NCBI RefSeq assembly: GCF_014696715.1 | Contig: NZ_JACJQO010000004.1 | Span: 62,001 to 126,000, forward strand | Direction: 5' to 3' | Length of the DNA: 64,000 nucleotides | Source of the DNA: Pseudanabaena sp. FACHB-2040 | GTDB taxonomy: Bacteria > Cyanobacteriota > Cyanobacteriia > Phormidesmidales > Phormidesmidaceae | Shown: piece by piece, positions 30,550 to 62,972 of the stretch | Numbering within the stretch: the first letter of the stretch is position 1 | Layout: every line of letters starts with the position of its first letter | Translations under genes and position numbers: made by a program | The notes under the pieces: generated by a model | The model's input: only the letters and a program-made list of their open reading frames with translations | The model's database searches: none | Told to the model about the DNA's origin: nothing

Positions 30550-30585
30550 GGATCGGTGCTGATTGAAAACCTTGCGGGGACTGGA

Positions 30586-30658
30586 TGGGCGGTACTGGAC
30601 TCGAACCAGTGACATCCTGCTTGTAAGGCAGCTTTCATGCCTACCAAGATACCCACCC
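30586..30658 (-). tRNA. tRNA-Val(UAC)-like sequence; 3' half intact, probable attL
   Basis: The minus strand folds partly as a tRNA of 73 nt. The anticodon loop is CTTACAA (anticodon UAC, valine). The T arm ACTGG-TTCGAGT-CCAGT is perfect, and the acceptor 3' strand ends CCGCCCA; CCA is not encoded. The 5' half is poor: the acceptor has one mismatch and one wobble, position 27-43 is G-G, and the D stem barely pairs. An intact 3' half joined to a degenerate 5' half, at the junction of host and phage genes, is what a tRNA-targeted integration leaves at one end. The full tRNA would then lie at the other prophage end. It could instead be a working but divergent tRNA. Confidence 0.55.
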
Positions 30659-30722: not shown

Positions 30723-30779
30723 TGGGGTCACTTTCAATGGACTAGATCTGGACTACACCAGGTAGTTAAGGTGACCCCA
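30723..30779. promoter_or_regulatory. Inverted repeat TGGGGTCAC / GTGACCCCA around the start of the RHH-like gene
   Basis: TGGGGTCAC (30723-30731) and GTGACCCCA (30771-30779) are perfect 9-bp inverted copies, 39 nt apart. The right copy overlaps the proposed GTG start codon. Ribbon-helix-helix proteins often bind their own promoter, so this is a candidate autoregulatory site. Confidence 0.35.
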
Positions 30780-31406
30780 CCCACAACCCGTATTAAAGTA
30801 ACCATTCAGCTGGAGACAAAGGCTGCGCTAGAGGCAGTAGCGGCCCGTTATGGAATCAGCCTCAGCCATCTCATAGTATCCGCAGCTGTGGGTCGCCACT
30901 TGATGCCTAAGCAGGAGACTGCTGACTTGGAGGCCGTGATGGAATATCTGAGGAGGCTAGAGGCCCAGGTTGAGAACTTACAGGAATTTATAAAACAGAC
31001 CCCACTTAGACCCCACCCCCAAACAGAGAAGCCGAAGAAGAAACGTTGGGGGCCAAAGCTAGGTGTCACCGGCTCTGCCAAGTCTGAACCCGTCCTCGAT
31101 ACAGAATCCCCTTCTGTTGTAGTAAGTCCTATACAGGCTATTGAGGAGGGATTGCCCGTACACATAGACCACCTGATTGACCGCTTCAACGGAGATAAAG
31201 TCCTAAAGGCTCGGCTGTGTCAGTTGGGCGGGCGCAAGGGCGACTTATTCAAGGGCTCTATCACCCACGCTCAGAAAGTCGAGGCAGTCACCCGTGAGCT
31301 GGACCCAGAAGGTCTGCCCTGGTTTCCCACGAGTCCAGACAGGGACTTCTGGGTCCAGACCAGCAGTGTGGTGTTCGTAAGAAAGGTGCTGACTAAGGAT
31401 CTCTAG
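30771..31406 (+). CDS. Ribbon-helix-helix-like protein at prophage end
   Basis: A 211-residue protein. The N-terminal 40 residues (RIKVTIQLETKAALEAVAAR, YGISLSHLIVSAAVGRHL) have the strand-helix-helix pattern of a ribbon-helix-helix DNA-binding domain. A short coiled-coil follows (LEAVMEYLRRLEAQVENLQEF), then a Pro/Lys-rich linker. The C-terminal 80 residues (DHLIDRFNGDKVLKARL to DRDFWV) are unrecognised and may be a second DNA-binding or effector domain. It starts with GTG. It is the first gene next to the probable attL and may be a prophage regulator. Confidence 0.5.
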   Translation: MTPPTTRIKVTIQLETKAALEAVAARYGISLSHLIVSAAVGRHLMPKQETADLEAVMEYLRRLEAQVENLQEFIKQTPLRPHPQTEKPKKKRWGPKLGVTGSAKSEPVLDTESPSVVVSPIQAIEEGLPVHIDHLIDRFNGDKVLKARLCQLGGRKGDLFKGSITHAQKVEAVTRELDPEGLPWFPTSPDRDFWVQTSSVVFVRKVLTKDL

Positions 31407-40056: not shown

Positions 40057-41253
40057 CTAAGCCTGGGGGTCAAAGTCAGAGGGTTCACCCGCGCCTCTGA
40101 GCAGCTGGGTAATGTTGCCGTTCTCATCGACCAGCGACATACTCAGGCTGTATGCCACAGGCAGGGTATAGGCATTTGGCATCGGGATATCGAGGAAGCC
40201 GCTATTTAGCCTCAGCTCATCGATAAACTTCAGCCCGCCCACAAACCTCAATGCGTGGCGCAGTTCCTGTATCAAGAGCGTTTGGCCGGGTTCGTAGGCA
40301 GCGGGGGTGAGATATGCCTGGTAAGCTTCCCAAATTGCTTCAGCTACCACAGTAGGGTCTGCCTCGGGCTGCAGCTTAGCAATTACTTCAGCGTCTACTT
40401 CCAGCAGTTCCATAGGGCTGGTGTACAAGGAGGTACCCAGCATCAGCGTTTGCGACAGGTTGTTAAATACAGAGCCCAAAACAGCTTGGTTAGCGGGTTC
40501 ACCAGTAGCATCTAGGCAAAACACATGGACAGCACCGGGTTGTCTGGTGACCTTATCCGAACCCAGCAGGCCGATAGCTTTAGCCCGACTGCCGCTGCCC
40601 ATAACTGCCTCAGCTGCTTCTCTAAAATCCAGAGCGGAGACCAGATTTCTACGTCTGAGTACAGCCAGCCCGCGTGCGATCGCACTTTCTATTGATTCAG
40701 CAGCCGCGCCGCCCTGTGCTGGTTCTGTGTTAATCACTCCAGCTAGGAATGCCAGGGGCTGAGTTATTTGATTAATCGTGTAGGCAGGGAGATTATAGGT
40801 CGGCCCCTCAGCAGCGGCTGTGGCAGTGACAGTACCCGACGACGCACCCGCAGGGATAGTTAGTAGGGAATCTGTGTAGAAGGAGTATTCACCTGTGTTG
40901 TTTGTGATCTGAAATCCAGCCGGGACTGTGTAGGCCGAACTTCTAGGTGCTGTGAGAGTGAATGTGATTGTGACCTGTGCCTTCTGCCCCAACAGGCGGG
41001 CCGTACCCGTAACCTCTAGGAACTTAAGCACCAGGGCCACGGGCATTTTATTAGCCCGGTAGAGCAGTTCCGCCCCGCTGAAGGCTTGTGCCCTTAGTAG
41101 AACTCCGATCGGCCCACTATCACTGAAGTCGTTGATTTGCCCTTGTGAACGGGTGGCAACCACGTTCTGGGCCTGGAGATACAGGGTCTCCTCTGACCTG
41201 TCATCTAGAGCTGGGATGTAGACCCCAATGCTCTCTGTATTGATATCAGCCAT
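40057..41253 (-). CDS. Baseplate protein J (gpJ/gp6-like wedge)
   Basis: A 398-residue wedge protein. The N-terminal part contains the variable beta domain YTVPAGFQITNNTGEYSFYT, which is typical of baseplate J, then AAEGPTYNLPAYTINQI, RRRNLVSALDFREAAEAVMG and the C-terminal YEPGQTLLIQELRHALRFV. AAGGA lies about ten nt before the ATG. The gap in front of it is filled by a decamer array (41284-41405). Confidence 0.85.
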   Translation of the reverse strand: MADINTESIGVYIPALDDRSEETLYLQAQNVVATRSQGQINDFSDSGPIGVLLRAQAFSGAELLYRANKMPVALVLKFLEVTGTARLLGQKAQVTITFTLTAPRSSAYTVPAGFQITNNTGEYSFYTDSLLTIPAGASSGTVTATAAAEGPTYNLPAYTINQITQPLAFLAGVINTEPAQGGAAAESIESAIARGLAVLRRRNLVSALDFREAAEAVMGSGSRAKAIGLLGSDKVTRQPGAVHVFCLDATGEPANQAVLGSVFNNLSQTLMLGTSLYTSPMELLEVDAEVIAKLQPEADPTVVAEAIWEAYQAYLTPAAYEPGQTLLIQELRHALRFVGGLKFIDELRLNSGFLDIPMPNAYTLPVAYSLSMSLVDENGNITQLLRGAGEPSDFDPQA

Positions 41254-41283
41254 TTAGGTAATCCTTGCTGTGGTTGGGGCTGC

Positions 41284-41405
41284 TCTATTTGATTCAAGTA
41301 GATTCTAAATAAATCTATTTAATTTTAATTAGCTCTATTTAACTTTATTAGGATCAAATAAAATCAAATAGCTTTATCTAGACTCACTTAGCATCTATTA
41401 GGATC
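41284..41405 (-). repeat. Array A: twelve degenerate 10-bp tandem units
   Basis: Read on the plus strand, twelve consecutive 10-mers follow a consensus near TCTATTTAGA. T is invariant at position 1 (12/12), A dominates position 4 (10/12) and T position 6 (11/12). Examples are TCTATTTGAT, TCAAATAGCT and TCTATTAGGA. The array ends TC, seven nt from the stop codon of the baseplate W gene, and starts 30 nt from the start codon of the baseplate J gene. The period is not a multiple of three, so it is not coding. It is strongly A+T-rich and helically phased. Confidence 0.85.
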
Positions 41406-41412
41406 GTAGGGG

Positions 41413-41763
41413 TTAGCCTAGTTGGACTATGATTGGCTCTTGGCTTAGTTCCTGGACTTGCCAGTAGATTTCTAAATAAGCGGCCCCACCGTCTTCTAAT
41501 CGGCTGTTCACAGCGAAGGTGGCCTGAGGTATTTCTCTAGTCAGGCGGCGCTGCACATCAGCTGCGTATGCTGACCAAGACTGCTGTGATTCAAAAAGTG
41601 CACCGGGTATGCCGTAGCCAGGTCTCATCGGGCTCTCCCCTGGTTCCGTCTCCACCATCGAGATGATGTGGGTAGCAATGAGGTCTTCGTCGCTGACGAC
41701 CTTCAGGTTCCCTGTTCGAGAGTCCACTTCAAGGGGGTAAGAAATTCCAGTTAATGCAGCCAT
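41413..41763 (-). CDS. Baseplate protein W (gp25-like)
   Basis: A 116-residue wedge protein of the gp25/gpW family, with the core LEVDSRTGNLKVVSDEDLIA, then ETEPGESPMRPGYGIPG. The MRP-YG motif is diagnostic. Its start overlaps the stop of the spike gene by one base. In contractile systems gp25 seeds sheath polymerisation from the baseplate. Confidence 0.85.
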   Translation of the reverse strand: MAALTGISYPLEVDSRTGNLKVVSDEDLIATHIISMVETEPGESPMRPGYGIPGALFESQQSWSAYAADVQRRLTREIPQATFAVNSRLEDGGAAYLEIYWQVQELSQEPIIVQLG

Positions 41764-44720: not shown

Positions 44721-45034
44721 GAGATGAGGTTGTACTCGCCCGCAGCCTCTGGTTGTTTAATCCCTGAAAGGTTCAGCTGTTGCGTCACGCTCTCCAAGGT
44801 AGAAGTAACGGTCTGCTGGATTTGAGCCTGGGCTTGGGCTACCAGCTCACCTACCTGTTCCTGCGTGGGGATCTGAATTGACTGGCCGATAGGCAGCTGC
44901 TCAAAGATATCTATGTCGTTGATATCGGCCAGTTCACGCCAGTTTGATTGGTCACCCAGCAGCTGGTGGGCTATCAGGTCTAGGCTGTCACCAGATGACA
45001 AGGTGTATTGCCGGTTTAGGGGCTGAGTGCTCAT
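44708..45034 (-). CDS. LysM-domain tail protein
   Basis: A 108-residue protein with a LysM-type domain (YTLSSGDSLDLIAHQLLGDQ, WRELADINDI, LPIGQSIQIP) followed by a Gln-rich helix. LysM proteins of contractile tails (P2 gpX, PVC7-like) sit at the tube-baseplate junction. Its start overlaps the CIS-tube gene stop by four bases and its end overlaps the hub gene. Confidence 0.8.
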   Translation of the reverse strand: MSTQPLNRQYTLSSGDSLDLIAHQLLGDQSNWRELADINDIDIFEQLPIGQSIQIPTQEQVGELVAQAQAQIQQTVTSTLESVTQQLNLSGIKQPEAAGEYNLISWIL

Positions 45035-45771: not shown

Positions 45772-45799
45772 AAAAAAGCCGCCCCTGTTTAGAGGCGGT
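45772..45799 (-). terminator. Rho-independent terminator after the cargo genes
   Basis: On the minus strand CCGCCTC-TAAACAG-GGGCGG is followed by CTTTTTTA. It stands 28 nt downstream of the GNAT-like gene and directly upstream of the CIS-tube gene. It separates the inserted cargo pair from the tail operon. Confidence 0.8.
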
Positions 45800-45826
45800 G
45801 TAGGGAGACTGATTTAACCTTGAACA

Positions 45827-46390
45827 CTATTCACCAGCTAGCCACTCAGGAGACTGCCAAACATAACTCCAGAGGATATTAGCTTCCTCGTCGTAGTTTT
45901 TCATTCCCAGTTTTTTCCATAGGTGCCGTAACCTAACACACTGACGAGCTTTCTCTTCATCAGTACCTTCAAATTTCCAGGGGCACGGCATAAGGAATAC
46001 AAAGCCATCATTAACGACAACATCGATGTAAGTAGCTACTGCCTTCAGGACGTTAAATTTGCCGCGCCACTCTGGCTCTATAAACACGTTCTCTATGTAC
46101 AGGCAACCATAATTTAACGCCATCTCTATCTCGTCAGGGTCAGGGTGATTTGCCAGCCACTCAGCCGCTATATAAATATCGTCACCTCTTATATCCGCCC
46201 AATTGACAACTTCGTCAATTTGACCCGAGAAGCGAACCCCAGAGATCTCTCCTAATTGAATGAAGTCCTCTTCAAAGACTCCGCTGGAGATGGTCCCTGT
46301 AAAAGTCTGAATTATCCTACGGTTGGCCATTTCGTGAGCGTCTACGATGGCACAAACTTTAACGGAAAGGTTTCTCATGCGAATTGTCAA
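45827..46390 (-). CDS. GNAT-like acetyltransferase (cargo gene)
   Basis: A 187-residue protein. The middle (CLYIENVFIEPEWRGKFNVL, KAVATYIDVVVND, FVFLMPCPWKF, LWKKLGMKN) follows the GNAT pattern of strand 4, acetyl-CoA loop and strand 5. However, the usual RxxGxG loop is altered to RGKFNV, so cofactor binding is uncertain. It lies in the tail operon between tape measure and CIS-tube genes, where phages carry non-structural cargo. It ends at its own terminator. An unrelated fold is possible. Confidence 0.4.
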   Translation of the reverse strand: MTIRMRNLSVKVCAIVDAHEMANRRIIQTFTGTISSGVFEEDFIQLGEISGVRFSGQIDEVVNWADIRGDDIYIAAEWLANHPDPDEIEMALNYGCLYIENVFIEPEWRGKFNVLKAVATYIDVVVNDGFVFLMPCPWKFEGTDEEKARQCVRLRHLWKKLGMKNYDEEANILWSYVWQSPEWLAGE

Positions 46391-46474
46391 AGCTTGCTCC
46401 TATCCTAGGAGACTGGGGCAAGTTCTGACTGAGCGCGCGATTCTATCTATTCGGCGCGCAATCGTAAACGTGAT

Positions 46475-47194
46475 TTATTCTTCCTTAGCCTCTGTCAGTT
46501 CATCTAGCTTCTTGAGAAGCAGGTCGATGAAGAGCATAATTGCTGCACCCTCTTCAGGTGATGGGTCCATGAATCGATGAGCATAAGAATTACGAAAGAC
46601 GCCAATCATACCTGCATATAAATCCCGATATGCTTGATGTTTACCGTTTAGCTGTTTGCCCCAAGGCCCATCCTTCTCAAAAAGCTTGTTCACAATCTTG
46701 TCGCCAGTAGAAGTAGGGTTAATGGCATCAATATTGCCTAATCTACGTAACCTCTCTTCTAAAACAGTTGTGGCTTGGCGTATTGCCTGATCCCATGCTG
46801 TAGGGTCATCCCCAGCGCTAATAGCGAAGCGGATTCTCTCCCACAGCTCTGGGTCTAAGTGTTCCATCAACTTAGGCGGTACTAAACGAGACGAACTAAG
46901 CAACTCAAGATTACCAAAATTAGTATCTACAGCTTGGTAGGAGAGATAGTTCAAGGCCAAGTCATATTGCACATAACTACGGAGACTACAAACCAGCAGC
47001 TCATGCTCTATCAACGCATCCAGAGTAGAGGATCTTATTTTAGGAATTGATCCTCCATAGCCCTGGATATGGCAGGACTCTCCTGAAAACAAAACCCATG
47101 TAATTCTCTCTTCTTGAAGTGCTCCAGCGCGAACTCTCTCTACAATCCATATGAGAGTATTCTTCTGTTTTTCAGTTAGAGTGCTGAATTGCAT
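46475..47194 (-). CDS. HEPN-like protein of the TIGR02391 type (possible abortive-infection factor)
   Basis: A 239-residue protein. The C-terminal half (AWDQAIRQATTVLEERLRRL, GKHQAYRDLYAGMIGVFRNS, YAH) matches the TIGR02391/Ymh-like pattern. It ends with Arg201-x4-His206 in FRNSYAHRF, the R-x4-6-H motif of HEPN ribonucleases. The N-terminal half is an unrecognised helical domain. HEPN proteins often act in phage defence or toxin systems. Placed within a prophage tail operon beside a GNAT-like gene, it is probably superinfection-exclusion cargo; that is an inference. Confidence 0.6.
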   Translation of the reverse strand: MQFSTLTEKQKNTLIWIVERVRAGALQEERITWVLFSGESCHIQGYGGSIPKIRSSTLDALIEHELLVCSLRSYVQYDLALNYLSYQAVDTNFGNLELLSSSRLVPPKLMEHLDPELWERIRFAISAGDDPTAWDQAIRQATTVLEERLRRLGNIDAINPTSTGDKIVNKLFEKDGPWGKQLNGKHQAYRDLYAGMIGVFRNSYAHRFMDPSPEEGAAIMLFIDLLLKKLDELTEAKEE

Positions 47195-47258
47195 CTTAAA
47201 GCCAAGCCCGCTAGCTTAGGGAGGAGTGACTGTAGTACATATTGCCTCCCATAGCTTA

Positions 47259-49151
47259 TCAAGCAAGTCCAAGCCGGGACTGGCCGTAACGACTCCACTC
47301 ATCAGCAATTGCAGCTATTACCTGCTGGGCTAACTCCCGTGGGTTGTCGGTATTAGCGTTGATGGTGATGTTATCAATAGACAGTCCGCCACCTCTTGGT
47401 GCCATCAAACTATTAGCCAGTGCGGCCTGCTGCCTACGGTTGAGAATCGCTTCAGAACTGTTGGCCATCACCAGACCTGCACCAGAGGGCATGTTCTGCC
47501 CCTCACGCACAGCCGCAGATAGCAAACCCCCAATCATCCCAGCGTCAGCATTAGGGATGTAGCCGCCATAGCGGGAGCCGATTGCTACTCTGGCTATCCC
47601 CGCACCCGGCACCATGTTCACAGCCGCCGAGCCTGCGCTCTTTGCGAAGTCGGGTATAGCGTTCCAGGCGCTGCGGATGCTGTTGCCAACAGCCTGAAGG
47701 AATCCTGAGATGGCCGACATGACGTTATTCCACTGGCCCACCCAGAAGCCCTTGATCGTGTCCCAGTTACGGACGATGACAGATACAAGACCAACTATTG
47801 CAGCGGTGACGGCCAGCGGGATGAGTCCGATACTGCCTAAGAATGCTGCAGTTAGGCTACCTAGGACGAGACCGCTGATGAGCTTCAGAGCAGCCCCTGC
47901 GAAGTCACCCCATTGAAGTTGCTCAAAGGCCAAGCCCAGCATGTTGATCGCACCCAGCAGCATCTGGCCTGTGACGGTGATTAGCTGCATCGTGTCTATC
48001 TGATTGATGAAGTCAGCAGCTTCATTGATGATGGTGGCCAGGAAGTTACCCACCTTACCCCCAAGCCCGCCGTAGTCAACATTACCCAGGGCGTCTAGAG
48101 CGTTGTTAAACCAACCACTCAGCCGTTCACCCAGCATGTCAGGGTCTATGTTGATAGCTCCCATGCCGAGTAATTGGTTGACATTGCTTAGCCAGCTGTT
48201 AAAACCATCCAGCCAGTTAAATAGAGCCAGCATCGGGTCTATGGTGATGCCCGCCTCAGATGCGATCGCAGACAACTGAGAGAAGATGCCGTTATCACCC
48301 AGGAGGAGCTTCAGGGTATCTGTGAGCTGAGTAATGACAGTTTGGTTGCCCGCATCCTTAGATAGGTCGCGCATTAGGCCAAAGACGCCGGTCTGAGGGT
48401 CGAGCAGCATCGATTGGAAGCTAGCGACCATACCATTGATAGTCTCGGTGCTGGCCTTGATAACTTCGTCAGGAACGGCTAGTGCCTTCTGTAGAACCTC
48501 AGCACGCTCACGCTGGGATAGGTCTTTGATATCTTTACCGAGGGCAGCAGCTTCTTGCTCCAGTGCTGCTAAAACGGCTGGAGACGCCTCAAAAAACTTA
48601 AGCTGCTGCAGACTAGCTAATGAGGCACCGCCTAGAAACTTACTGATACCTAAGCTGGCGAGGCTAACATCCACCCCACTGTTGACAGCTCGGAAGGTAG
48701 CATCGCGGCTGATGTTCTCTAGTGCCTTACTAAAATCAGCATTGTTTAGGGTGCCGTCTAGGTTCTTGAATGCGGGTACTAGGTTGTCCATGATGCCCTT
48801 ACCCAGTTTCACGTACTGTGCCGTTTCACCAGGTAGAGCTGCTGCGACCTTGGCCATCTTTTCAGAGAAGCCATCTACGAATTGGGTGGCCTCATTGAAG
48901 CTCTTACCCGTCAGCTTCATGAAGTCGCCAGCGACTGCGACATTCTCTTGCTGGATGTTGACAGACTGTTTTAGCCCATCCACCAACTTGCCTACAGCAG
49001 CAGTCGCCGCACCCATAGCACCCGTGACAGCACTAGACATTAGATTAGCTGCGAAGACATTCCCGCGCAGCATGCCCCCGATACTCTCAAAGGCTCTCTT
49101 AGCTTGAGAGGCGTCAACTGTGACGGTTGTCTTGACCTGGTTACCGGCCAT
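47259..49151 (-). CDS. Tail tape measure protein
   Basis: A 630-residue, mostly helical protein that sets tail length. It starts MAGNQVKTTVTVDASQAKRA with a Gly/Ala-rich stretch, and has hydrophobic segments at about 370-450 (LITVTGQMLLGAINMLGLAF; LISGLVLGSLTAAFLGSIGL, IPLAVTAAIVGLVSVIV). The C-terminal region contains SEAILNRRQQAALANSL. At the usual 1.5 angstrom per residue the tail would be about 95 nm. It follows the two chaperone frames directly. Confidence 0.88.
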   Translation of the reverse strand: MAGNQVKTTVTVDASQAKRAFESIGGMLRGNVFAANLMSSAVTGAMGAATAAVGKLVDGLKQSVNIQQENVAVAGDFMKLTGKSFNEATQFVDGFSEKMAKVAAALPGETAQYVKLGKGIMDNLVPAFKNLDGTLNNADFSKALENISRDATFRAVNSGVDVSLASLGISKFLGGASLASLQQLKFFEASPAVLAALEQEAAALGKDIKDLSQRERAEVLQKALAVPDEVIKASTETINGMVASFQSMLLDPQTGVFGLMRDLSKDAGNQTVITQLTDTLKLLLGDNGIFSQLSAIASEAGITIDPMLALFNWLDGFNSWLSNVNQLLGMGAINIDPDMLGERLSGWFNNALDALGNVDYGGLGGKVGNFLATIINEAADFINQIDTMQLITVTGQMLLGAINMLGLAFEQLQWGDFAGAALKLISGLVLGSLTAAFLGSIGLIPLAVTAAIVGLVSVIVRNWDTIKGFWVGQWNNVMSAISGFLQAVGNSIRSAWNAIPDFAKSAGSAAVNMVPGAGIARVAIGSRYGGYIPNADAGMIGGLLSAAVREGQNMPSGAGLVMANSSEAILNRRQQAALANSLMAPRGGGLSIDNITINANTDNPRELAQQVIAAIADEWSRYGQSRLGLA

Positions 49152-49391
49152 CTATTCCCACTCCAAATCTTCGCCCCATTGAGGCTTTTCCTTATCTTTG
49201 TGAATGCGTGTCTGCACCGCCTGTACGACCTCCAGGTGATAAATAAGCTCTGACACCTGCAGCTCTAGTAACTCAAAGTAGCCAGAGTTTATGTGGCCAC
49301 CGCAGGCCAACAGAGCCATCTCGTAAAGGTCGTTAGCCCTGAACGCCCGCCCCTGCACGTTGAACTGCAGACATTCGTTTAACTCTCTCAC
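49152..49391 (-). CDS. Tail assembly chaperone, second frame (frameshift extension)
   Basis: A 79-codon frame beginning at a GTG, overlapping the end of the first chaperone frame by 59 bases and running to the tape-measure start. In many phages the equivalent reading frame is joined to the first by programmed frameshifting, giving two products that help fold the tape measure. The relative frame here needs a +1 or -2 shift, and the frame has an in-frame stop just upstream of the overlap. GAGG in front of the GTG also allows separate initiation. Confidence 0.6.
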   Translation of the reverse strand: MRELNECLQFNVQGRAFRANDLYEMALLACGGHINSGYFELLELQVSELIYHLEVVQAVQTRIHKDKEKPQWGEDLEWE

Positions 49392-49791
49392 CGAGACCTC
49401 GAAAGCAGCTCAGGGCCGCGCCCAGCCTCTCCATATCTTCCAGTTCTAGGGCGTCAACAAAGGCGTCAAATCCAGGCTTGTCACCTTGGATGCAGCCGTG
49501 AACCAGCTTTACCGTGGCGAAGGCATCAGACTGGTACTCGGAGGGGGCTTTGGCATACCAGCCCTGCATTAGCAGGAATGCCTTGGCCTTGGGTTCTTTG
49601 ATGGTGTACTCAGTGCCGTCTAACAAAGCAAAGGTGACGGTGCCAGCTTCTTCATCGTGCTGGACGGTGTAGCCCTCCTGCTCGGGTTCAGGTGCAGCTG
49701 GGGTAGCGGTCGGGGGTTTCTGCTCCTGCTCGGGCTCAGGTGCAGCCGCAGGTTTAGGGGCCTGAGGTACTTTTTTCTGGATGTGTGCCAT
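49333..49791 (-). CDS. Tail assembly chaperone, first frame
   Basis: A 152-residue protein with a Pro/Glu/Gln-rich N-terminus (APEPEQEQKPPTATPAAP) and a globular part (EAGTVTFALLDGTEYTIKEP, KAKAFLLMQGWYA). The position directly upstream of the tape measure, and the overlap with a second frame, identify it as the chaperone that acts on the tape measure. Near its end the coding strand reads GCAGGGGCGGGC, which resembles the G-rich -2 slip site of phage Mu. Confidence 0.7.
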   Translation of the reverse strand: MAHIQKKVPQAPKPAAAPEPEQEQKPPTATPAAPEPEQEGYTVQHDEEAGTVTFALLDGTEYTIKEPKAKAFLLMQGWYAKAPSEYQSDAFATVKLVHGCIQGDKPGFDAFVDALELEDMERLGAALSCFRGLGERVKRMSAVQRAGAGVQG

Positions 49792-49803
49792 TGGATTGCC
49801 TGA

Positions 49804-49925
49804 CCTATTAGATGCTGGATAAATCTATTTGCTTCTATTTAGATCTAATAGGTTTTATTAGATCTAAATAGAAGCTAGATAAACCTAAAAGCTACAAATA
49901 GAAGCCAATAGATTTATCTAGAATC
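49804..49925 (-). repeat. Array B: twelve degenerate 10-bp tandem units
   Basis: Twelve consecutive 10-mers of the same family as 41284-41405, with consensus near TCTATTAGAT. Examples are CCTATTAGAT, TCTATTTAGA and GCCAATAGAT. Its end lies exactly seven nt from the stop codon of the tube gene, as in array A. Inside it 49831-49850 and 49856-49875 are perfect 20-bp inverted copies around the 5-nt loop GGTTT, nested in a second pair (49818-49829 with 49908-49919). It fills nearly the whole spacer before the chaperone gene. Confidence 0.85.
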
Positions 49926-49932
49926 GGGAGGG

Positions 49933-50388
49933 TTATGCCCAGCTAGCCGACTCGACAGTTAGGGTGACGGTAAGCTTGGCTACTTGGTCACCTGCGGCGG
50001 TGTCCATGCCGGACATCACCTCATATTCTTTGACTCGGCAACCAGAGAGACTCCAGGCTTTGGTGCCGCGCTGCTCAATGCCGTTGGCGCGTCGGACGGG
50101 GCGAACGGTCACATCGAAAGTGTCGAGACTGGCTTTGGCCTCTTTAATCCAGGTCAAGATGGTGTCGTCTTGCTCAGGATCAAAGGCTTTGGAAATGGTG
50201 ATGTCGGCGTACTCTGTAGAACCTGATGCAGCCTTACGCTTGACGTTGCTGAGCCCGTCGCTGTAGGTGGGACGGGAGATGGTTTCTTTCACCCCTGAAA
50301 ATTCGGACCAATAATTTGGCAACCCTGCGATTGTAATGAGGCTGTCTGCTGTAGTTATCGGATTGGTATTTTGGAGGCGGACTGACAT
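49933..50388 (-). CDS. Tail tube protein
   Basis: A 151-residue beta-rich protein with no Cys-rich or enzymatic motifs: ITIAGLPNYWSEFSGVKETI, YADITISKAFDPEQDDTILT, WSLSGCRVKEYEVMSGMDTA, then KLTVTLTVESASW. This is the pattern of contractile-tail tube proteins. It stands next to the sheath gene, as usual. Its stop is seven nt from decamer array B. Confidence 0.75.
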   Translation of the reverse strand: MSVRLQNTNPITTADSLITIAGLPNYWSEFSGVKETISRPTYSDGLSNVKRKAASGSTEYADITISKAFDPEQDDTILTWIKEAKASLDTFDVTVRPVRRANGIEQRGTKAWSLSGCRVKEYEVMSGMDTAAGDQVAKLTVTLTVESASWA

Positions 50389-50418
50389 ATCAAATGACTC
50401 CTGAATAGATTAGGTAGG

Positions 50419-51897
50419 TTAGTTAGCTGTGATTTGACCGGCGGCAGCGGCCGACTGCACCTGCCCCACGGGGACCCTGATGGTGTTAATCAAAATGCGT
50501 TCTACTGCGGGGCTGGGGGCGGCATACACCTCAAGCAGCACATTCCCTCTTTCCAGCTCGTCAGAGAGGTTGTTCTCGAAGTTGCAGCGAACCTCGAATG
50601 CATCCTCTTCGGAGTTACCAAACAGGGCCTTACCAATCCACATGCGGCGGCAGACAGCGCGTGCAGTCTCCTCAATACGGCTCAGCAGCACACCCTGGCC
50701 GTCGATGCTGTTGAAGAGGTCGAAGTCGAAGCCCCGACGCAGCGTGCCATTCAGCACGTTCATAATCACACGGGTGACACCGAAGGTGTAGAAGGCATCT
50801 GCACTACGGGTCCGCATGGCCCAGCTGACTACGCCTTTATTGCGTAGGTAGCGCACCAAGTTGATGCCCAGCGGGTTCAGAACACTCTGGTCTTGGTTGT
50901 TGAAGCGGTGGGTTACGTCTTTCACACCCTGAAGTGGGTACTTAGCACCCGCAATAGGCTGGTGGAAACCCTCTTCCTTAAATCGCTTAGTAGCTAGACC
51001 TGCGATCGCAGGTGACGCGGGTACAACCACATCATCCAGGTCGGTTACGTAAGGTGCGTAGTAAAAGGTATGACCTTGAGGCGAGACGTACTGCTGCCCG
51101 TCTGTCTGAGCCTCAGCAACGGTATCAACAGCGGGACCGCAGTCTACCAAAGCTACCCAGTCAAAACCCTCTTCAGCAGCTAAGGCGTGCATGGCATTAC
51201 CCACTGCCAGACGATCGGTAGCCTGGGGCAGCAGCTGGAATGCCTGAGGTGCAATCAGGAATCCTTGTGCCCAATCTTCTTCGTAGTCAAAGGTGTTCTC
51301 AATGGCGTAGACGTAGTCAGCTGCCTTAGGAACTATAGGCGTGCTGGTTGTCAGCGTCATACGCGCTGCGTTCTCGTCTAGGGTCACCGTAGGCATGGTA
51401 CCTAGCGGGTTATCCTGACGAATCAACAGCTGGTTAGCCGTCATGCCCGCTACAGCAGTTACAGCAGATGCAGCAGCAGAGGTGTTGATGCCCTGAATCA
51501 GAAGAGATGCGATACTCGCGGGGGTGTCAGCGGCGACAGCAGTAGCCTCGACTTCAACACCATTGATATCGACGCCGTAGGTGCCCGCACCAGCGGTGTC
51601 TACCGTAACGGTGTACTCAGCAGCAATAGGTGTACGGATGAAGTAAAGCAGGCCGCTGCGGTCATTGCGGAAGTAGAGTTTGACAGCTGCTTCTGAAGTA
51701 GAAGAGCCAAACTGGTTGGTGAAGTCTTCTAGAGAGCGCACCAAGGTAGGTTCTAGAAAGTTGCCAGTAGTGGCAGAGCCAATCATATACACAGCTTGGA
51801 AGCTGGCAATCTCTAGAACACGGTAGCCAGCGGTGGTTTCTACAACGCGGACCCCAGGGCGCGTGAAATTAGCGAACGCGGTAAGAATGTTCGTCAT
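50419..51897 (-). CDS. Contractile tail sheath protein
   Basis: A 492-residue sheath subunit. It starts with TRPGVRVVETTAGYRVLEIA, continues with the insertion domain (TVDTAGAGTYGVDINGVEVE), and has the conserved C-terminal part VARYLRNKGVV-like (NLVRYLRNKGVVSWAMRTRS) and FGVTRVIMNVLNGTL. It shows that the prophage has a myovirus-type tail. It is followed by the tube gene. Confidence 0.9.
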   Translation of the reverse strand: MTNILTAFANFTRPGVRVVETTAGYRVLEIASFQAVYMIGSATTGNFLEPTLVRSLEDFTNQFGSSTSEAAVKLYFRNDRSGLLYFIRTPIAAEYTVTVDTAGAGTYGVDINGVEVEATAVAADTPASIASLLIQGINTSAAASAVTAVAGMTANQLLIRQDNPLGTMPTVTLDENAARMTLTTSTPIVPKAADYVYAIENTFDYEEDWAQGFLIAPQAFQLLPQATDRLAVGNAMHALAAEEGFDWVALVDCGPAVDTVAEAQTDGQQYVSPQGHTFYYAPYVTDLDDVVVPASPAIAGLATKRFKEEGFHQPIAGAKYPLQGVKDVTHRFNNQDQSVLNPLGINLVRYLRNKGVVSWAMRTRSADAFYTFGVTRVIMNVLNGTLRRGFDFDLFNSIDGQGVLLSRIEETARAVCRRMWIGKALFGNSEEDAFEVRCNFENNLSDELERGNVLLEVYAAPSPAVERILINTIRVPVGQVQSAAAAGQITAN

Positions 51898-51946
51898 CTT
51901 GAATTCCTTAAGTTAGTCGTCTAGCTATTGGGCTGTGTGTCGCTGA

Positions 51947-52570
51947 CTATGGCTGTGGGCGGGTGATAACAATCTCGGTGTCTAGGGTGTAGTCAGCGGG
52001 GACATCAGCGTCGAAACCCACCTCAGCCCTGTTAACCGCGATCGTCAGCTGGTCAATACCCACAGGCTGCTCCGGTGCTGGACCGAAGTCAGGGTCTAGG
52101 TCAAAATCTGTAAGGTTGAACTCAATGAGCAGCGCAAGATTGCAGTACACCAGCCAGTCATCCTGGTCAGTGCCGTCGCGCTCTAGCTGAATAGGAAACT
52201 CTTCTGCATCCGGCTCAACGTGTTTAATGCCACCAGACCCGGCTAAACCCAGCAGTGACATACCTTGTAGGTACTGAACTACGCCCTCTAGCTTCTGTAT
52301 GGGAATTTCGTCTAGGGTTAGTTCACCCGGATATCTGTAAGCAATGGAGTAGGCGAAACGTCCACGCCCACAGATGCCCTGCAAATCAGTACGCTCGTAG
52401 ACCAGGTCTTTAACTGGGTAGGCAATACATGTGTTGGCTGGGCGAAGACTCTGCTCTGTGCTGCTGGGGCTCAGAAGTGCCTTAGGCGGGTCAGCGTCAA
52501 AGGCGTCAATGCGAACTAGCCCTGTTATCCACGACTGGAGACGCTGTCTGACGGTTTGGATATTTGACAT
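51947..52570 (-). CDS. Tail terminator or neck protein
   Basis: A 207-residue protein (VRQRLQSWITGLVRIDAFDA, YSIAYRYPGELTLDEIPIQK, VNRAEVGFDADVPADYTLDT). It has no clear family. It is located between the neck genes and the sheath gene and overlaps its neighbour by one base. In contractile phages that position belongs to the tail terminator that joins sheath and tube to the neck. Confidence 0.5.
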   Translation of the reverse strand: MSNIQTVRQRLQSWITGLVRIDAFDADPPKALLSPSSTEQSLRPANTCIAYPVKDLVYERTDLQGICGRGRFAYSIAYRYPGELTLDEIPIQKLEGVVQYLQGMSLLGLAGSGGIKHVEPDAEEFPIQLERDGTDQDDWLVYCNLALLIEFNLTDFDLDPDFGPAPEQPVGIDQLTIAVNRAEVGFDADVPADYTLDTEIVITRPQP

Positions 52571-53046
52571 TAGTCTTTATCTCTCCGCAAGATGAGCTTC
52601 CACAGCGTGGGGTCAGACGTACCAACCTGGATAATCCGACAGGGGGTGCCGCCCGCCAGCTGCTTAGTCACAGGGTTGGTATATTCCACTGCTACAGAAC
52701 CGTCTGAGAACGTCTGAACAGAAGGGTCAACGACAGCAGTGACACGCTTACTATCTGGGCGCACCAACCACTCATAGGGTGTGACCCGAGAGAACTCAGC
52801 CGTTAAATCAGTACTGGAGACGCTTACACCTTGCTCCTCATTCCCAATTAGCAGGCCGATCAGGCGAGGTGAGGCTGTGTTGATAAGTGGCTTGGGAAGA
52901 ATCAGATAATCAGTGAGGGTGGGTCGCTTCTGTTCGTCTACGCCATGATGTCGGACTAGCAGGTAGCGTCTTTGCGGCACACCCAGCCGGGTCTCAATCT
53001 TGGCCCCAATATCTTCAATTGCTGCGAGCTTGTCAAATAAGGACAC
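52570..53046 (-). CDS. Neck or head-tail connector protein
   Basis: A 158-residue protein (RRYLLVRHHGVDEQKRPTLT, GTSDPTLWKLILRRDKD at the C-terminus). No family is recognised. It lies in the unit of short one-base-overlapping genes between capsid and sheath, the normal place of head-tail joining proteins. Confidence 0.45.
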   Translation of the reverse strand: MSLFDKLAAIEDIGAKIETRLGVPQRRYLLVRHHGVDEQKRPTLTDYLILPKPLINTASPRLIGLLIGNEEQGVSVSSTDLTAEFSRVTPYEWLVRPDSKRVTAVVDPSVQTFSDGSVAVEYTNPVTKQLAGGTPCRIIQVGTSDPTLWKLILRRDKD

Positions 53047-53367
53047 CTAGTTAAGCTCCTGTTCGATGTGCTGGCCCAGCTGATTGCCTAGGTGTCTTTG
53101 AATCTGCTGCTGCGAGCGGCTGACCATACCCAGGCGCTTCTCGACATAAGGTGCGTAGATAACAGGGTTATTGAATGAAAAGGTGTCCCAGCCCTCATGT
53201 CGGGTTTCCCAGCCACGCCTTAGATTCCCAGTTCGTACCGGAGTCACAGCCTGCACCAGTCCCTTGGCGTAACTCATCGTGTCATCCAGAGCACCTGATA
53301 CAGCGTGCCGGAGATTCTTGTCAGGGTTGTTATGCAAGGGACCTGATGCAGAAAATGTGACTTTCAT
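53047..53367 (-). CDS. HK97 gp10-like neck protein
   Basis: A 106-residue protein with the gp10-like pattern AKGLVQAVTPVRTGNLRRGW followed by FNNPVIYAPYVEKRLG. The P-V-x-T-G-x-L-R core is typical. Proteins of this family bind at the head-tail joint. It overlaps both neighbours or adjoins them without a gap. Confidence 0.7.
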   Translation of the reverse strand: MKVTFSASGPLHNNPDKNLRHAVSGALDDTMSYAKGLVQAVTPVRTGNLRRGWETRHEGWDTFSFNNPVIYAPYVEKRLGMVSRSQQQIQRHLGNQLGQHIEQELN

Positions 53368-53726
53368 TATTGGTACTGAACTGTATGTCGGGTTTGGCCC
53401 TGAGAGTATTTACTCCAGTGCAGTGGGATGCCAGCGCGTATTGCCAATTCACGCAGCAGATTATGCCCGTCGCCACGCAGGTGCATAACGTGCTGGCCCC
53501 ACTGGAGTTGGGTACGCCCAGTAGCTGCAGCCATAGAACTAGAGCGTGCCTCGGTGAGTTGGCCGTCAATTACCTTCAGCTCATCGAAAATTGCATCAAT
53601 GCGCTCGATGGTGAGGTCTGTATAGTCCAGCGTCAGCCGCGACAAGTAGTTAGGCCGATTTAAGTCATCGGGGTAGCCGAGCGCGAGTAGTATCTGCTCG
53701 CGCTGCTCCTCATCAAGTGTTGTCAT
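53367..53726 (-). CDS. Head-tail adaptor or head completion protein
   Basis: A 119-residue helical protein (EEQREQILLALGYPDDLNRP, LTIERIDAIFDELKVIDGQL). The N-terminal helix bundle resembles small adaptors that dock on the portal. It lies 54 nt downstream of the capsid gene and overlaps the gp10-like gene by one base. Confidence 0.5.
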   Translation of the reverse strand: MTTLDEEQREQILLALGYPDDLNRPNYLSRLTLDYTDLTIERIDAIFDELKVIDGQLTEARSSSMAAATGRTQLQWGQHVMHLRGDGHNLLRELAIRAGIPLHWSKYSQGQTRHTVQYQ

Positions 53727-53780
53727 GTCACTCCCTCTTAGTAGAGTTTCTAGGGGCCAGACTCACCTAGCCCCTAAGCT

Positions 53781-54830
53781 CTAGATGGTGTTAGAGATGT
53801 CCTGCATTACAGACAGGCTCTGAATCGGATCGTGAGCCTTCAGCTGTAGGGAGATAGAGATTTCAGCCTGGAAGATGTCGGGGTGGCCCACAGACACATC
53901 AGCTAGGCGGAACTTCAGACCCTGGTAGGAGAAGAAGCTCTGGCGGCTGTTGTCCACACCAGGAGCGCCCTCTTCATCGAAGACGTACAGCCCCATCTTG
54001 CTGGGGTCGATGAAGTAAGCCTTGTTAGCCACAGCGTCCACAACGTCGGAGACGACGGGGATGCCCTTCACGGCATACCCAGCGTAGGGAGCGATGTTGG
54101 CCACCATGTTGGCGTAGTCAGCATTGACCTGGGTTTCTGCCTGATACAGCTTACGTAGTACGTCCTGTTCGATCTCGTCGGAGGTGACGATGATGAGGTT
54201 CGCACCGTTGTTACGAGCAGCAGTAGCGCCAGCCTTACGACGATCGCGCAGCAGTGCGGTAACGCGGTCCACAGTCAGAGCCTGAGCAGTGCCAGCTGTA
54301 GCGCCGGTCTTCAAGATGCACTTCCAGCGGGGGTAGGTGGTGCGAGAGATACCAGCGTAGGTGCCGGTTTGGGTAGCAATCGCATTCATGCCGAACACAC
54401 CGTAGTTAGCGGTGTTGGCCACACCAGAGCCGACGTAGAGAACCTTATTGATCTCTTGGGTGATAGCCCGCAGAGCGTCGGTAACTTCAGTACCCACAGC
54501 TGCGCGTACAGCATCAACACGACCAGTAGCAGCAGCTTCGATCAAGTCGCGCCGCTTGACATTCATCTGGTACTTGAAGAAGTAGTCAGGGATGGTGAGA
54601 GTAGCTTCACCTAGAGAGCCAGCGGTGTCATCAGCCAGAGCGCCAGCTAGGGCACGACCACCAGCAGCGGCATCGGTCAGGCGAGCGGCCCATTCAATAG
54701 GACGTTGACGGGTCAGTTGAGCGCGGCCAGCCATAACACCTAGTAGGGGAGTCTCGGTTAGCCGGGTTTCAGCCAGTTCTTGCTCGGCCACAGCGGCGAG
54801 CAAATCAGCGGGAGCGTAATTATTAGGCAT
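53781..54830 (-). CDS. Major capsid protein (HK97 fold)
   Basis: A 349-residue coat protein. Features are the N-arm helix (ADLLAAVAEQELAETRLTET), E-loop region (PDYFFKYQMNVKRRDLIEAA), spine helix (GTEVTDALRAITQEINKVLY), and the A-domain strand segments NNGANLIIVTSDEIEQDVLR and YFIDPSKMGLYVFDEEG. It is preceded by a scaffold-like gene. No separate head protease is visible. Confidence 0.8.
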   Translation of the reverse strand: MPNNYAPADLLAAVAEQELAETRLTETPLLGVMAGRAQLTRQRPIEWAARLTDAAAGGRALAGALADDTAGSLGEATLTIPDYFFKYQMNVKRRDLIEAAATGRVDAVRAAVGTEVTDALRAITQEINKVLYVGSGVANTANYGVFGMNAIATQTGTYAGISRTTYPRWKCILKTGATAGTAQALTVDRVTALLRDRRKAGATAARNNGANLIIVTSDEIEQDVLRKLYQAETQVNADYANMVANIAPYAGYAVKGIPVVSDVVDAVANKAYFIDPSKMGLYVFDEEGAPGVDNSRQSFFSYQGLKFRLADVSVGHPDIFQAEISISLQLKAHDPIQSLSVMQDISNTI

Positions 54831-54863
54831 GTTTCGTTGTGAAGGGGTAAGTGATTAGAAAAA

Positions 54864-55523: not shown

Positions 55524-55562
55524 TGGAGTTGTCCGGGTAAGGGATTTTTCTGCATGGCAAAG

Positions 55563-59602: not shown

Positions 59603-61120
59603 TTATTCCTCGTCAGGCTCAACGGACACTTCAACAGGGACAACACGCAGCTCTTGCTGGATGGCCTCTTTCTGCTCGGGGGTAAGGTTAGACATTAAGA
59701 AGCCCAATAGTCTCTCGCGCACCAGCACAAACAGGGTGGGTGTCAGCGAGTTCTGCAGCTGAGCCATGTCAATCAGCAGCAGCTTAGTCAGTGAGTCGAG
59801 TAGGTCGTCCAGGCGGTTGTTGCCAAACTCGTCTAACCCAGAGACCGCTAGGGGACTGCCATCTTGGCCCTGAGCTTTGGCAACGAGCTGGTAGATGTCT
59901 TGGAGTGCGTCGGTCAGTATGTGGCCGTAGGACTTGAGCCTTTGATCCTCGATCTCAAAGTCCATTTCCTTAGCCGCACCGGACTCGACCTTGCTTTCCT
60001 GTACGTAAGCGCCTCCAACACCCAGAATGGTGCGGATTTGCTTCTCAGCCCGTTCTAGAGCTTTATCAATGTGAATGACAATGTCACCCCTAGGCTCAGC
60101 CCACTCAAACTTGTCTAGCTCCAGAACATACTGCAGGCCAGTAGGGATTGAGTTATCACCGTCGCCTACGAACGTGTTGGGTAGGTCACCATCGGGGGTC
60201 TGGATGGGTTTGTAGGTGCGCTGCAGGTATGCCGCAGTCAGCAGGTCGTATCTGTGACATTCCAGCCGCAATGACTCTTCTGCTTTGCTGACGGCCTGAT
60301 CGCTACTCCATTTATCGTCAGGCAGTTCCAGGCGTGTAACAGGCAGTGCGCCGAAGCCATGCTGAACCAAACTGGTGAGAGGGATGGTTTGCTCAGGCTG
60401 ACCTGTAGGAGGTAGAGGTTTGCCTTGTGCGTCTAGCAGCTCAACGATGCGACCATTGCTACCCAACTTGACATAACTCTCGTAGCGGGCAATGTACTGA
60501 CCATCAATAAATGTCCAGCGGGCCTGCTTCAGCGGGGGTGCCAATGGATTGCTAGTGTCGTCAATGATCTGAAAGACCTTGAGCCAGGTTAGTTTACCTT
60601 CGATCTCACCCCAGTTAGTTATTTGGACGGCAGGGTACAAGACGACATGAGGAGTAAGACCAAGTGCTTCTTCCTGTGCGCGATTAAGCGGCGTGACCGG
60701 GCTCTTAGGCTTGTCAACATGACAGTAGACAACCTTATACTTCAGTGCCTCAGCGAATAGTTGCTCTACCAGCTGAATCTCTGTACGCCCTTGGCCGTTG
60801 TTATTCTCACGGAAGGATTGCCAGAAGATGTCAGCAGCAGGGGGTACATTGCTGAGGTGTACGGTGCCATTGGTAATCTTGCTGGCTAGCTGAGAGAGTG
60901 CCCCACCCAGCACATTGCTGTAGGAGAATTTGTCTAGCCGGGTCTCATAGATGGCATCCTCTTCACCAGGCCGCTGCTTAAGGAACTCAGGGAGTCTATC
61001 TCGGAGCCGCCAACCCCCAGCTGTGAGGAGGTAGATGCGCTCCAGGTGCGACTTCATGGCCGTGTAGGTAGGGTGCTCAGCCTGAAGCAGCTTGAGGGTG
61101 AGGCGGGTGGGGTATGTCAT
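59603..61120 (-). CDS. Portal protein (DUF4055-like)
   Basis: A 505-residue portal. Key parts are HPTYTAMKSHLERIYLLTAG at the N-terminus, YSNVLGGALSQLASKITNGT, a clip region with HGFGALPVTRLELPDD, the long helix around SKAEESLRLECHRYDLLTAA, and the C-terminal helix LSTL-like DLLDSLTKLLLIDMAQ. The DUF4055 group forms the portal in some cyanobacterial and proteobacterial phages. It stands one gene downstream of the large terminase. Confidence 0.75.
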   Translation of the reverse strand: MTYPTRLTLKLLQAEHPTYTAMKSHLERIYLLTAGGWRLRDRLPEFLKQRPGEEDAIYETRLDKFSYSNVLGGALSQLASKITNGTVHLSNVPPAADIFWQSFRENNNGQGRTEIQLVEQLFAEALKYKVVYCHVDKPKSPVTPLNRAQEEALGLTPHVVLYPAVQITNWGEIEGKLTWLKVFQIIDDTSNPLAPPLKQARWTFIDGQYIARYESYVKLGSNGRIVELLDAQGKPLPPTGQPEQTIPLTSLVQHGFGALPVTRLELPDDKWSSDQAVSKAEESLRLECHRYDLLTAAYLQRTYKPIQTPDGDLPNTFVGDGDNSIPTGLQYVLELDKFEWAEPRGDIVIHIDKALERAEKQIRTILGVGGAYVQESKVESGAAKEMDFEIEDQRLKSYGHILTDALQDIYQLVAKAQGQDGSPLAVSGLDEFGNNRLDDLLDSLTKLLLIDMAQLQNSLTPTLFVLVRERLLGFLMSNLTPEQKEAIQQELRVVPVEVSVEPDEE

Positions 61121-61715: not shown

Positions 61716-62972
61716 CTACGCAGCTAGAACGTGGTCGCCGTGTTTGTATTCGATGGTGCCGATGCAATACGCAGCAGCATCAATAGGGTGGTCGTCCTGC
61801 CCATCGGCGGGTTTATTCAGCAGATTGCCGTCCTTGTCCTTAGCACGGTGGTACGAGGCGAACACATCGTATAGGTGCCGTGTCTTCTCAGTCAGGTACA
61901 GTCTGTTCTGGTAGAAGAGCGAGTTGATGATGGTTGCCCGCTCCATCACCCCAGGCTTGGATCGCTGTACCCGAACGGCCCGCTGTAGACCGGGTAAGTT
62001 ATATGACTTGCCGTAGCGGCGGAATGACATCACGGAGGCGGGGCGATCGTCGGGTAGATAGGCTCGGTAAATGCTGTACTGGCGGCACAGCTTAGCAGCG
62101 GTATCCAGCAGGTGAGCTTCAGTAACTGGCTCCTCTGAGCGATTCTGCCAGTGGTCTAGGAGGTAGTAGGCACCCTGGTGGGTTAAGCCAATGACAACTA
62201 GAGCGGGGTTAATATCACCCCAGTCCAGGCCGAGGTACACACCTCTGAAAGCTTCAGGGGCGTTGACGATATGGCGTGGCTGTAGCTGGTCGAAGATTTG
62301 ACCATCGAAGTCTTCCCAACTCGCCTCAAACTCCTGCCTGTAAACCTTGGGTGGCAGCTCTTGCTCAGCACGCTGCAGGTTTTCCCTAGGGAAGAAGGGG
62401 TTATCAGCAGTGATGAAGTGGAAGTAATCCCAACCCAGAGTGGCAATTGCCTGCTCATGGAGCTTGTAAAAGTGTGTGTTTCTACCCTTAGGTGTACCGA
62501 TGACCAGGCTCTCCCAGTCAGCGTTACGTGCCAGGGCCGGGAAGATAATCTCAGGCCATACCAGAGGGCTGAAGTCCTGATATTCGTCTAGCCCTGCCCA
62601 GATAAGGTTGAGACCACGCAAGCGATCCCCGCCATTATCAGCACCTCGTAGGATAAGGTCGGGTCTGTTGCCCTTGAACTTAATCCTGAAGTCTGACCTG
62701 TTGATATCAGCAACGAGCGGGCATTGCTCAAGTATGTTTAGCAGAGGTTGCCAGTGGATGCCGCGACACATCTTTAATGTGGGCATCAGAATGGCTGCGA
62801 CCTGGGGGCTTACCGGGTCGATTGTGCCCTGGTAACTAAGGCACTTAGCTATACCTGTTGTAAGGAGTAGGCGGGATTTGCCCAGACCGCGACCAGCGAC
62901 TACAACCTTAGCCCTGGCACGACTGCTGAACACCCGCATCTGGGCTTTATGCAGGTCGAGTCGTAATTGCAT
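61716..62972 (-). CDS. terL: Terminase large subunit
   Basis: A 418-residue packaging motor. The ATPase half has a deviant Walker A in VVAGRGLGKSRLLL (about residues 27-40) and Walker B in NLIWAGLDEYQDFSPL, with EYQ as the catalytic and adenine-motif region. The nuclease half shows LGLDWGDINPALVVIGL and, near the C-terminus, DDHPIDAAAYCI, giving the RNase H-like acidic residues. A terminator separates it from the small subunit gene. Confidence 0.9.
   Translation of the reverse strand: MQLRLDLHKAQMRVFSSRARAKVVVAGRGLGKSRLLLTTGIAKCLSYQGTIDPVSPQVAAILMPTLKMCRGIHWQPLLNILEQCPLVADINRSDFRIKFKGNRPDLILRGADNGGDRLRGLNLIWAGLDEYQDFSPLVWPEIIFPALARNADWESLVIGTPKGRNTHFYKLHEQAIATLGWDYFHFITADNPFFPRENLQRAEQELPPKVYRQEFEASWEDFDGQIFDQLQPRHIVNAPEAFRGVYLGLDWGDINPALVVIGLTHQGAYYLLDHWQNRSEEPVTEAHLLDTAAKLCRQYSIYRAYLPDDRPASVMSFRRYGKSYNLPGLQRAVRVQRSKPGVMERATIINSLFYQNRLYLTEKTRHLYDVFASYHRAKDKDGNLLNKPADGQDDHPIDAAAYCIGTIEYKHGDHVLAA

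Follow-up and report, generated by a model that had tools for sequence, protein, structure and literature searches.

Why should the late operon of a prophage carry tandem arrays of 10-bp repeats between its tail genes? This question is raised by array B, a run of twelve 10-bp units (49804..49923) that separates the tail-tube gene from the late gene following it in a 64,000-nt stretch of the Pseudanabaena sp. FACHB-2040 genome (G000). The whole stretch, which lies on contig C4, is referred to here as the window. Another array, array A (41284..41405), comprises twelve decamers at 41284-41403 plus a trailing TC and lies between the gp25-like and baseplate J genes; neither array was assigned a strand. 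The same unit recurs in two further arrays, C and D, which adjoin an actin-like gene of the same prophage, and two related prophages are arranged similarly but have other decamers. Judged from the sequence, arrays A to D are likely to be parC-like arrays of the prophage's own actin-type (type II, ParMRC-like) partition system, dispersed into the late operon. Actin-type centromeres have been described as one repeat block beside the motor gene; here they apparently have spread into an operon of structural genes, and two related phages appear to have dispersed their arrays likewise, with different repeat sequences.

Results

Arrays A and B within the window

The unit of both arrays was a degenerate, near two-fold-symmetric decamer, T-C-W-A-W-T-W-R-N-N. 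When the window was scored for matches at lags of 10, 20 and 30 nt, array A reached 0.564 and array B 0.470, compared to a window mean of 0.253 (standard deviation 0.027), and they were the only two outliers at period 10; the next place scored 0.345. At periods of 7-9 and 11-13 bp the top score was 0.445, for a 12-bp period inside a gene at 54602. Against local shuffles the z values were 9.0 for A and 7.3 for B. A degenerate three-unit pattern had 19 matches in the window, with 0.01 expected, and all of them (19/19) fell inside A and B. These results confirmed the description in the first-pass annotation of this DNA, which had regarded array B as the second of two twelve-unit arrays of one decamer family that could not have arisen by chance.

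The same annotation had pointed out that each array stands equally far from the stop codon of the gene before it. Both A and B were found to finish in ..ATC, 7 nt away from that stop codon; the offset was not found for arrays C and D or for the arrays of the Tildeniella and Nodosilinea prophages described below. Array B also contained the perfect 20-bp inverted repeat with a 5-nt loop that had been reported for it (z -6.8). The nested outer pair said to surround this repeat was recovered in part; the minimum-energy fold of array B includes a second, adjacent hairpin instead. BLAST analysis of array B against 388 genomes of the class matched G000 only, together with one 38-bp partial match in genome G387, and a search of the window against Rfam at the gathering threshold gave no family match except one tRNA.

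Two further arrays and an actin-like operon

In the whole 6.28-Mb genome, the three-unit pattern (up to three mismatches) gave 28 matches, compared to three for the reversed control, and 26 of the 28 fell within the four arrays, with 19 matches in A and B and seven in C and D on contig C1. The other two lay at one place on contig C22 (252092-252129), which was rejected as a further array, there being no array visible. A dispersed host repeat family was also rejected, both because the pattern was restricted to the prophage with the exception of this C22 place and because of the BLAST result for array B.

Array D (C1, about 392499-392588) is a full array in front of the G000 parM gene, at the 5' end of this actin-like gene, with a z value of 8.3 against local shuffles. 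Array C (C1, about 390776-390909) lies 115 bp past the stop of a 128-aa gene (L045 10025-10411), and the order on C1 is array D, parM, the 128-aa gene and array C. The earlier count of two copies was therefore incomplete, since the prophage has four arrays. The accompanying suggestion of a regulatory cassette or structural boundary was compatible with the data, but had missed the link to an actin-like partition operon that is flanked by related arrays outside the window.

The actin-like gene encodes 367 aa if read from the earliest start available, a TTG overlapping array D; the true start probably lies further in. Its product matched the Pfam families ALP_N (1.5e-6) and MreB-like_C (3e-6) and the PHROGs family phrog_691, annotated as 'partition protein' (1.1e-14). 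The single ParM sequence had no match in the PDB; a profile of 15 actin-like proteins (ALPs), the G000 protein included, matched the PDB entries for Ta0583, CorM (5.8e-7), ALP12 and AlfA. ParM searches of viral contigs and phages gave no match. A small gene was present beside parM in 4/4 prophages (G000, Tildeniella, Nodosilinea and Myxacorys), and in G000 the 128-aa gene was read as a putative parR gene, the product of which is the predicted array binder.

Assignment of the arrays to one prophage

At their right ends, contigs C1 and C4 both finish in sequence that is common to another contig end and that stops with TGGGATGCACTC. This shared sequence was read as the two ends of an insertion sequence (IS), and the unique DNA beside both of these ends had an identical 8 bp, as expected of a target duplication. 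A 58-bp direct repeat in tRNA-Val(tac) forms attL (30574..30631, no strand), and its partner attR was located at G000:C1:388535-388592, in the orientation predicted by a C4-IS-C1 junction. Because of the 8-bp duplication and the 58-bp att repeat, the prophage was taken to comprise about 40.3 kb of C4, 7.4 kb of C1 and the IS. Without the IS it is ~48 kb in length and contains all four arrays plus the partition genes, with the two late-operon arrays about 24 and 33 kb from parMR (IS not counted). The apparent IS, which has terminal GAGTGCATCCCA in addition to the 8-bp duplication, splits the prophage between the terminase side and the partition genes. Two related HNH endonuclease genes (L045 7729-8856) were observed beside the attR end.

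Arrays in related prophages

Three other prophages were found that had a tube protein 49-51% identical to that of the window. The Tildeniella torsiva prophage (G025) carried two late-gene arrays with the decamer TTGGCGCA/TGTRCCAA, the first between genes of 106 aa and 157 aa and the second flanked by genes of 734 aa (M23-type) and 207 aa; two 55-bp blocks within the second array were 98% identical. This prophage also had an endolysin, a divergent actin-like gene and a 114-aa gene. The actin-like gene was 20% identical to that of G000 (BLAST E 0.038) and matched phrog_691 (2.1e-9). An 18-letter palindromic pattern, with at most one mismatch, occurred at 10 places in the 5.8 Mb of Tildeniella sequence, compared to one for the reversed control. 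The first array accounted for six of these places and the second for three, and the remaining one lay 58 bp upstream of parM.

In the prophage of Nodosilinea sp. LEGE 07298 (G048), arrays with a changed decamer were located at the same two junctions as in Tildeniella; the late junctions that hold arrays differ between G000 and these two sisters. The Nodosilinea ParM protein, encoded on a separate contig, was 80% identical to that of Tildeniella, and the ParR protein was 48% identical. Two genes flanking the arrays were 80% identical between these prophages; the arrays themselves were 66-72% identical over aligned columns, with many gaps. The 10-bp power of the G+C/A+T pattern of the Tildeniella arrays was matched by 0/1921 and 4/1924 other windows of their contig pieces, and that of the Nodosilinea arrays by 15/2295 and 1/2298. 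Gradual A+T drift without unit structure in related prophages, the observation that the first-pass annotation had named as evidence against its proposal, was not seen in these two relatives, where the arrays had 35-48% G+C and decamers differing from those of G000; in the third, Myxacorys californica (G088), a late array was not found. The Myxacorys prophage carries parM and a 78-90-aa partner, and a convincing second copy of its parM-upstream region was not found.

Similarity of the late arrays to the parM region

Each 60-bp bin of the parM-bearing piece was scored by its ungapped similarity to the late arrays of the same prophage. The bin in front of parM was the top-ranked bin in G000 (1/249), Tildeniella (1/334) and Nodosilinea (1/286); top bins at window positions 41461/41521 and at g48late 10621 represented run-over from masked arrays, not new sites. 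Array A of G000 scored 60.6 against the array D region (shuffled maximum 33.0), and the best match of array B on the parM piece was array C, with a score of 45.8. The Tildeniella arrays scored 38.5 and 39.3 against the region before their own parM gene (shuffled maxima 26.9 and 23.4) and the Nodosilinea arrays 26.3 and 32.3 (shuffled maxima 21.4 and 24.9). In the cross test, the Tildeniella arrays ranked 15/286 on the Nodosilinea parM piece.

ALP loci in other cyanobacteria

ALP homologues were present in 102/388 genomes of the class, with a small gene directly 3' of the ALP gene in 28/29 loci examined. This actin-then-small-gene layout is the same as in the prophage, a PDB relative is named CorM, and the usual C-terminal LDDLLGL of the small partner resembles the LFDSLGL of the prophage protein. 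In contrast, the cyanobacterial ALPs were only about 25-32% identical to the prophage ALP, and no strong 10-bp array was present beside the loci examined. Of the 30 loci that a search with the Tildeniella ParM retrieved, the Tildeniella and Nodosilinea loci among them, six had an array with a period of 8 to 12 bp and a z value of at least 6. Array position was inspected in four of the six loci (L180, L187, L188 and L194; L191 and L199 were left out), and in 4/4 the array was at the 5' end of the parM open reading frame, as exemplified by L187: TGTCCCAAAT TGGCCCAACC. No paper on CorM was found in the open-access literature; the available passages of PMC12645912 concern another cyanobacterial actin-like family.

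Late operon and neighbouring genes

Arrays A and B lie within the late operon of a myovirus prophage, in agreement with the setting proposed by the first-pass annotation; the operon has terminase, portal, head, sheath, tube, tape measure, baseplate and tail-fibre genes. Minus-strand genes of the operon encode the terminase large subunit (61716..62972, phrog_2), portal (59603..61120, phrog_145), major head protein (53781..54830, phrog_37569), tail sheath (50419..51897), tail tube (49933..50388, matching Phage_T4_gp19 slightly under the Pfam cut-off and with array B 7 nt past its stop), a 152-aa late protein downstream of array B (49333..49791, no family match in Pfam or PHROGs), the gp25-like baseplate protein (41413..41763, under the Pfam cut-off, with array A 7 nt past its stop) and baseplate J, downstream of array A (40057..41253). 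A contractile injection system alone was rejected, capsid, portal and terminase genes being present; the major head protein in particular argues for a phage rather than a stand-alone injection system. A sheath query against the genome contigs gave no match.

A gene for a NikA-like protein (30771..31406, plus strand, under the Pfam cut-off) adjoins attL, and the protein is 62% identical to that of the Tildeniella prophage (L162 3878-4534). It is unlikely to be the array binder, because it is conserved to this extent although the decamers differ. Two of these prophages thus have a conserved NikA/MobA-like protein at the end where the fibre genes lie. Within the tail operon there is a Hypoth_Ymh (PF09509) gene (window 46475-47194), which is probably cargo, and the tail-fibre protein encoded at window 37317-39392 had a strong match to hyaluronidase HylP (1.3e-47), here in a cyanobacterial prophage. 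Also inside the prophage, at G000:C4 about 129690-130020 (L015 3690-4020), more than 300 nt are nearly all C and T on one strand. This polypyrimidine tract directly follows a 642-aa gene without a family match, which we take to resemble a phage DNA polymerase gene. The tract, at the end of C4, was rejected as a related array, its 10-bp score reflecting composition.

Discussion

Partition as a probable explanation for the arrays

The arrays are probably DNA handles through which actin filaments encoded by the virus itself would keep the phage genome in place or shift it. ParR dimers would sit on the two-fold-symmetric decamers, with one to each helical turn, and about twelve dimers lying abreast on 120 bp would make up one turn of a ParR-DNA helix that could capture the end of a ParM filament. 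Acting via the sites at parMR and the two late-operon sites, such filaments may keep phage genomes in place, move them or distribute them once these are excised and replicating, in the manner proposed for AlpC/AlpA of CGP3, and transcription of the late operon may be slowed where an array in it is coated by ParR. The sequence itself establishes the arrays, the unit common to them, their location on a single prophage, the actin-like gene nearby and the comparable arrangement of two related prophages; we infer both the binding of ParR and the centromere function of the arrays. The fit of the twelve decamers of A and B to one turn of the ParR helix is suggestive only, and the late-operon arrays may serve as extra docking sites, as a brake on late transcription or as both. 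A more far-reaching version of the partition model may be offered tentatively, as one that could easily prove wrong. It postulates a decentralised actin-type centromere in which several separate ParR-loading arrays of ~12 units, each one helix turn, would seed their own ParM filaments, the late arrays would also act as ParR-dependent switches linking positioning to late expression, and decamer and ParR would change together to give incompatibility groups.

Of the features expected of a type II system, the G000 prophage has the actin-like ATPase gene and, in array D, iterated repeats before parM. Its putative centromere is not confined to one locus beside the operon: A and B are tens of kb away, and likewise in the two sisters. 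A number of observations weigh against the partition model. Known parC sites are direct repeats at one locus, whereas the arrays described here are near-palindromic, dispersed and mostly foldbacks. In a test of the G+C/A+T (S/W) pattern, A and B were just moderately periodic (95/6347 and 75/6345 windows were equally high) and C and D had no 10-bp periodicity. The regions before parM in Tildeniella and Nodosilinea contain matching sites but are not 10-bp periodic, and the Nodosilinea late arrays were not detected by the lag scan, being found by position and motif; the scan missed them because their units alternate in orientation. The signal upstream of the Myxacorys parM gene was weak at best (z 3.6, S/W test negative), and no late array was found in this prophage, which argues against universality. 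Among 30 loci found with the G000 ParM, a strong 10-bp peak was present in G000's own alone, and two others had 8-bp repeats.

The putative ParR protein and the matches to the parM region also contribute to this doubt. The 128-aa candidate had no match to a ribbon-helix-helix (RHH) family in Pfam, and neither did the small partners of the other cyanobacterial ALPs, to which the candidate was weakly related by hhalign (P 0.0017, probability 15%) and the Tildeniella partner more weakly still (P 0.011). For the Myxacorys partner, the model that AlphaFold built from the single sequence was poor, with a predicted local distance difference test (pLDDT) score of 58, two helices and no strand. Array B of G000 on its own scored 30.0 against the array D region, which is not significant given a shuffled maximum of 30.3. 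Furthermore, the Nodosilinea arrays ranked 1/334 on the Tildeniella parM piece, with a score of 28.3 compared to 39.3 for Tildeniella's own arrays. Specificity between the sisters is therefore partial, since the Nodosilinea arrays also rank first before the Tildeniella parM gene; taken together, the rank and cross tests indicate that each prophage's sites correspond to its own par locus, and that the sisters have some signal in common.

Alternative explanations

The late arrays might mainly be operators or roadblocks at which late transcription in the lysogen is reduced by a ParR-like or other repressor, the arrays playing no part in the movement of DNA. They do lie inside the late operon, array D and the matching sites of the sisters stand in front of parM, and the available text of PMC5016525 describes an R1-type ParR-parC complex that represses its own promoter. 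However, array C is downstream of parR rather than before the operon, the presence of an actin-like motor gene next to the sites favours partition, and promoter-like sites in 41000-55800 were at chance level (8 found compared to 8.8 expected); a purely regulatory role is therefore considered unlikely. Somewhat less probable again is a role at the RNA level, in which the foldback arrays would be processing or stability hairpins in the late mRNA that set unequal expression of the tail genes. Consistent with such a role, 8/8 folded arrays were more stable than their shuffles (z -4.7 to -10.1), and in 6/8 (B, C and four sister arrays) stability was increased by unit order. There is, however, no common RNA fold, because unit-order shuffles of A and D folded about equally well; the folds of A and B differ, and the presence of the same unit before parM is left unexplained. 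The foldback order in B, C and the four sister arrays exceeds what the units themselves give and is not explained by the partition model. This order is real and speaks more strongly than any other feature for an RNA or cruciform role.

If the arrays were functionless dispersed repeats, selfish or neutral, that spread by copying and foldback, this would account for the different array junctions of G000 and the two sisters and for the near-identical 55-bp blocks of the second Tildeniella array. Such repeats are nevertheless improbable: the pattern is restricted to one prophage in G000 (the C22 place excepted) and in Tildeniella, the period is kept at 10 bp despite variation of the units, and in three prophages the arrays match the prophage's own parM region. 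The possibility that the arrays are intrinsic terminators, which had been raised in the first-pass annotation, is very remote. Although A and B follow stop codons and B has a hairpin, the hairpin is not followed by a T-run, the genes downstream continue in the same direction, and 0/13 terminator-like sites in 41000-55800 fall on A or B; a plain terminator is made unlikely both by this result and by the location of D in front of parM.

If the arrays do belong to a partition system, these prophages provide natural material for three questions: by what means replicating phage genomes are positioned in cyanobacteria, what several actin docking sites would offer a genome, and in what way changes in an adaptor go along with changes in its DNA site. 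They also suggest a cheap search rule, in that 10-bp-period arrays in phage late operons may signal a partition operon elsewhere in the element.

Comparison with known systems

The G000 prophage resembles the ParMRC systems of R1, pB171, pSK41 and pCW3 in having an actin-like gene followed by a small gene for a candidate DNA-binding protein, with tandem repeats of ~10 bp before the actin gene. It differs from them in having two arrays about 24 and 33 kb off between tail genes, one array downstream of parR, and near-palindromic units. Known type II centromeres, according to the accessible part of a review, sit in a single locus beside parM. The repeats bound by ParR are given in the available passages of PMC9426499 as 11 bp (R1), 10 bp (pB171) and 20 bp (pSK41), and those of PMC5016525 describe a ParR helix turn of 12 dimers with one iteron each.

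Prophage CGP3 of Corynebacterium offers a second comparison. Its AlpC/AlpA proteins are proposed in the passages available from PMC4446434 to move phage DNA; the same passages state that the AlpA adaptor binds repeats (alpS) upstream of the operon, that the downstream region is unbound, and that the alpS motif also occurs elsewhere in the genome, yet is concentrated at the operon. As far as those passages go, CGP3 and the G000 prophage are alike in being integrated and in having an actin-like protein, an adaptor, and repeats upstream of the operon. They differ in gene order, with the adaptor first in CGP3 and the actin first in G000, and in the repeat, which is TTAAnnG in AlpAC/alpS and TCWAWTWR in the G000 prophage, so that the latter does not conform to the AlpAC type. 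Arrays in a late operon are not described in the CGP3 passages, unlike the situation in G000.

The inverted repeat (IR) sites of the phage-plasmid N15 are dispersed over its genome. Four such centromere sites (IR1-IR4) are described in the available part of PMC7205306, and on that description N15, like the G000 prophage, is a phage with several separate centromere sites; it differs in that its system is of the SopAB (ParABS) rather than the actin type and its sites are single inverted repeats rather than 12-unit arrays. Bacillus phage B83 carries ParM, according to the passages seen of PMC6669507. Among the matches listed in a search of the open-access literature, none reported that actin-type centromere arrays occur dispersed among the structural genes of a phage. 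On the parts of these sources that were available, the nearest known counterparts of the arrays are the alpS repeats of CGP3, the centromere sites of N15 and the ParM-bearing Bacillus phage B83.
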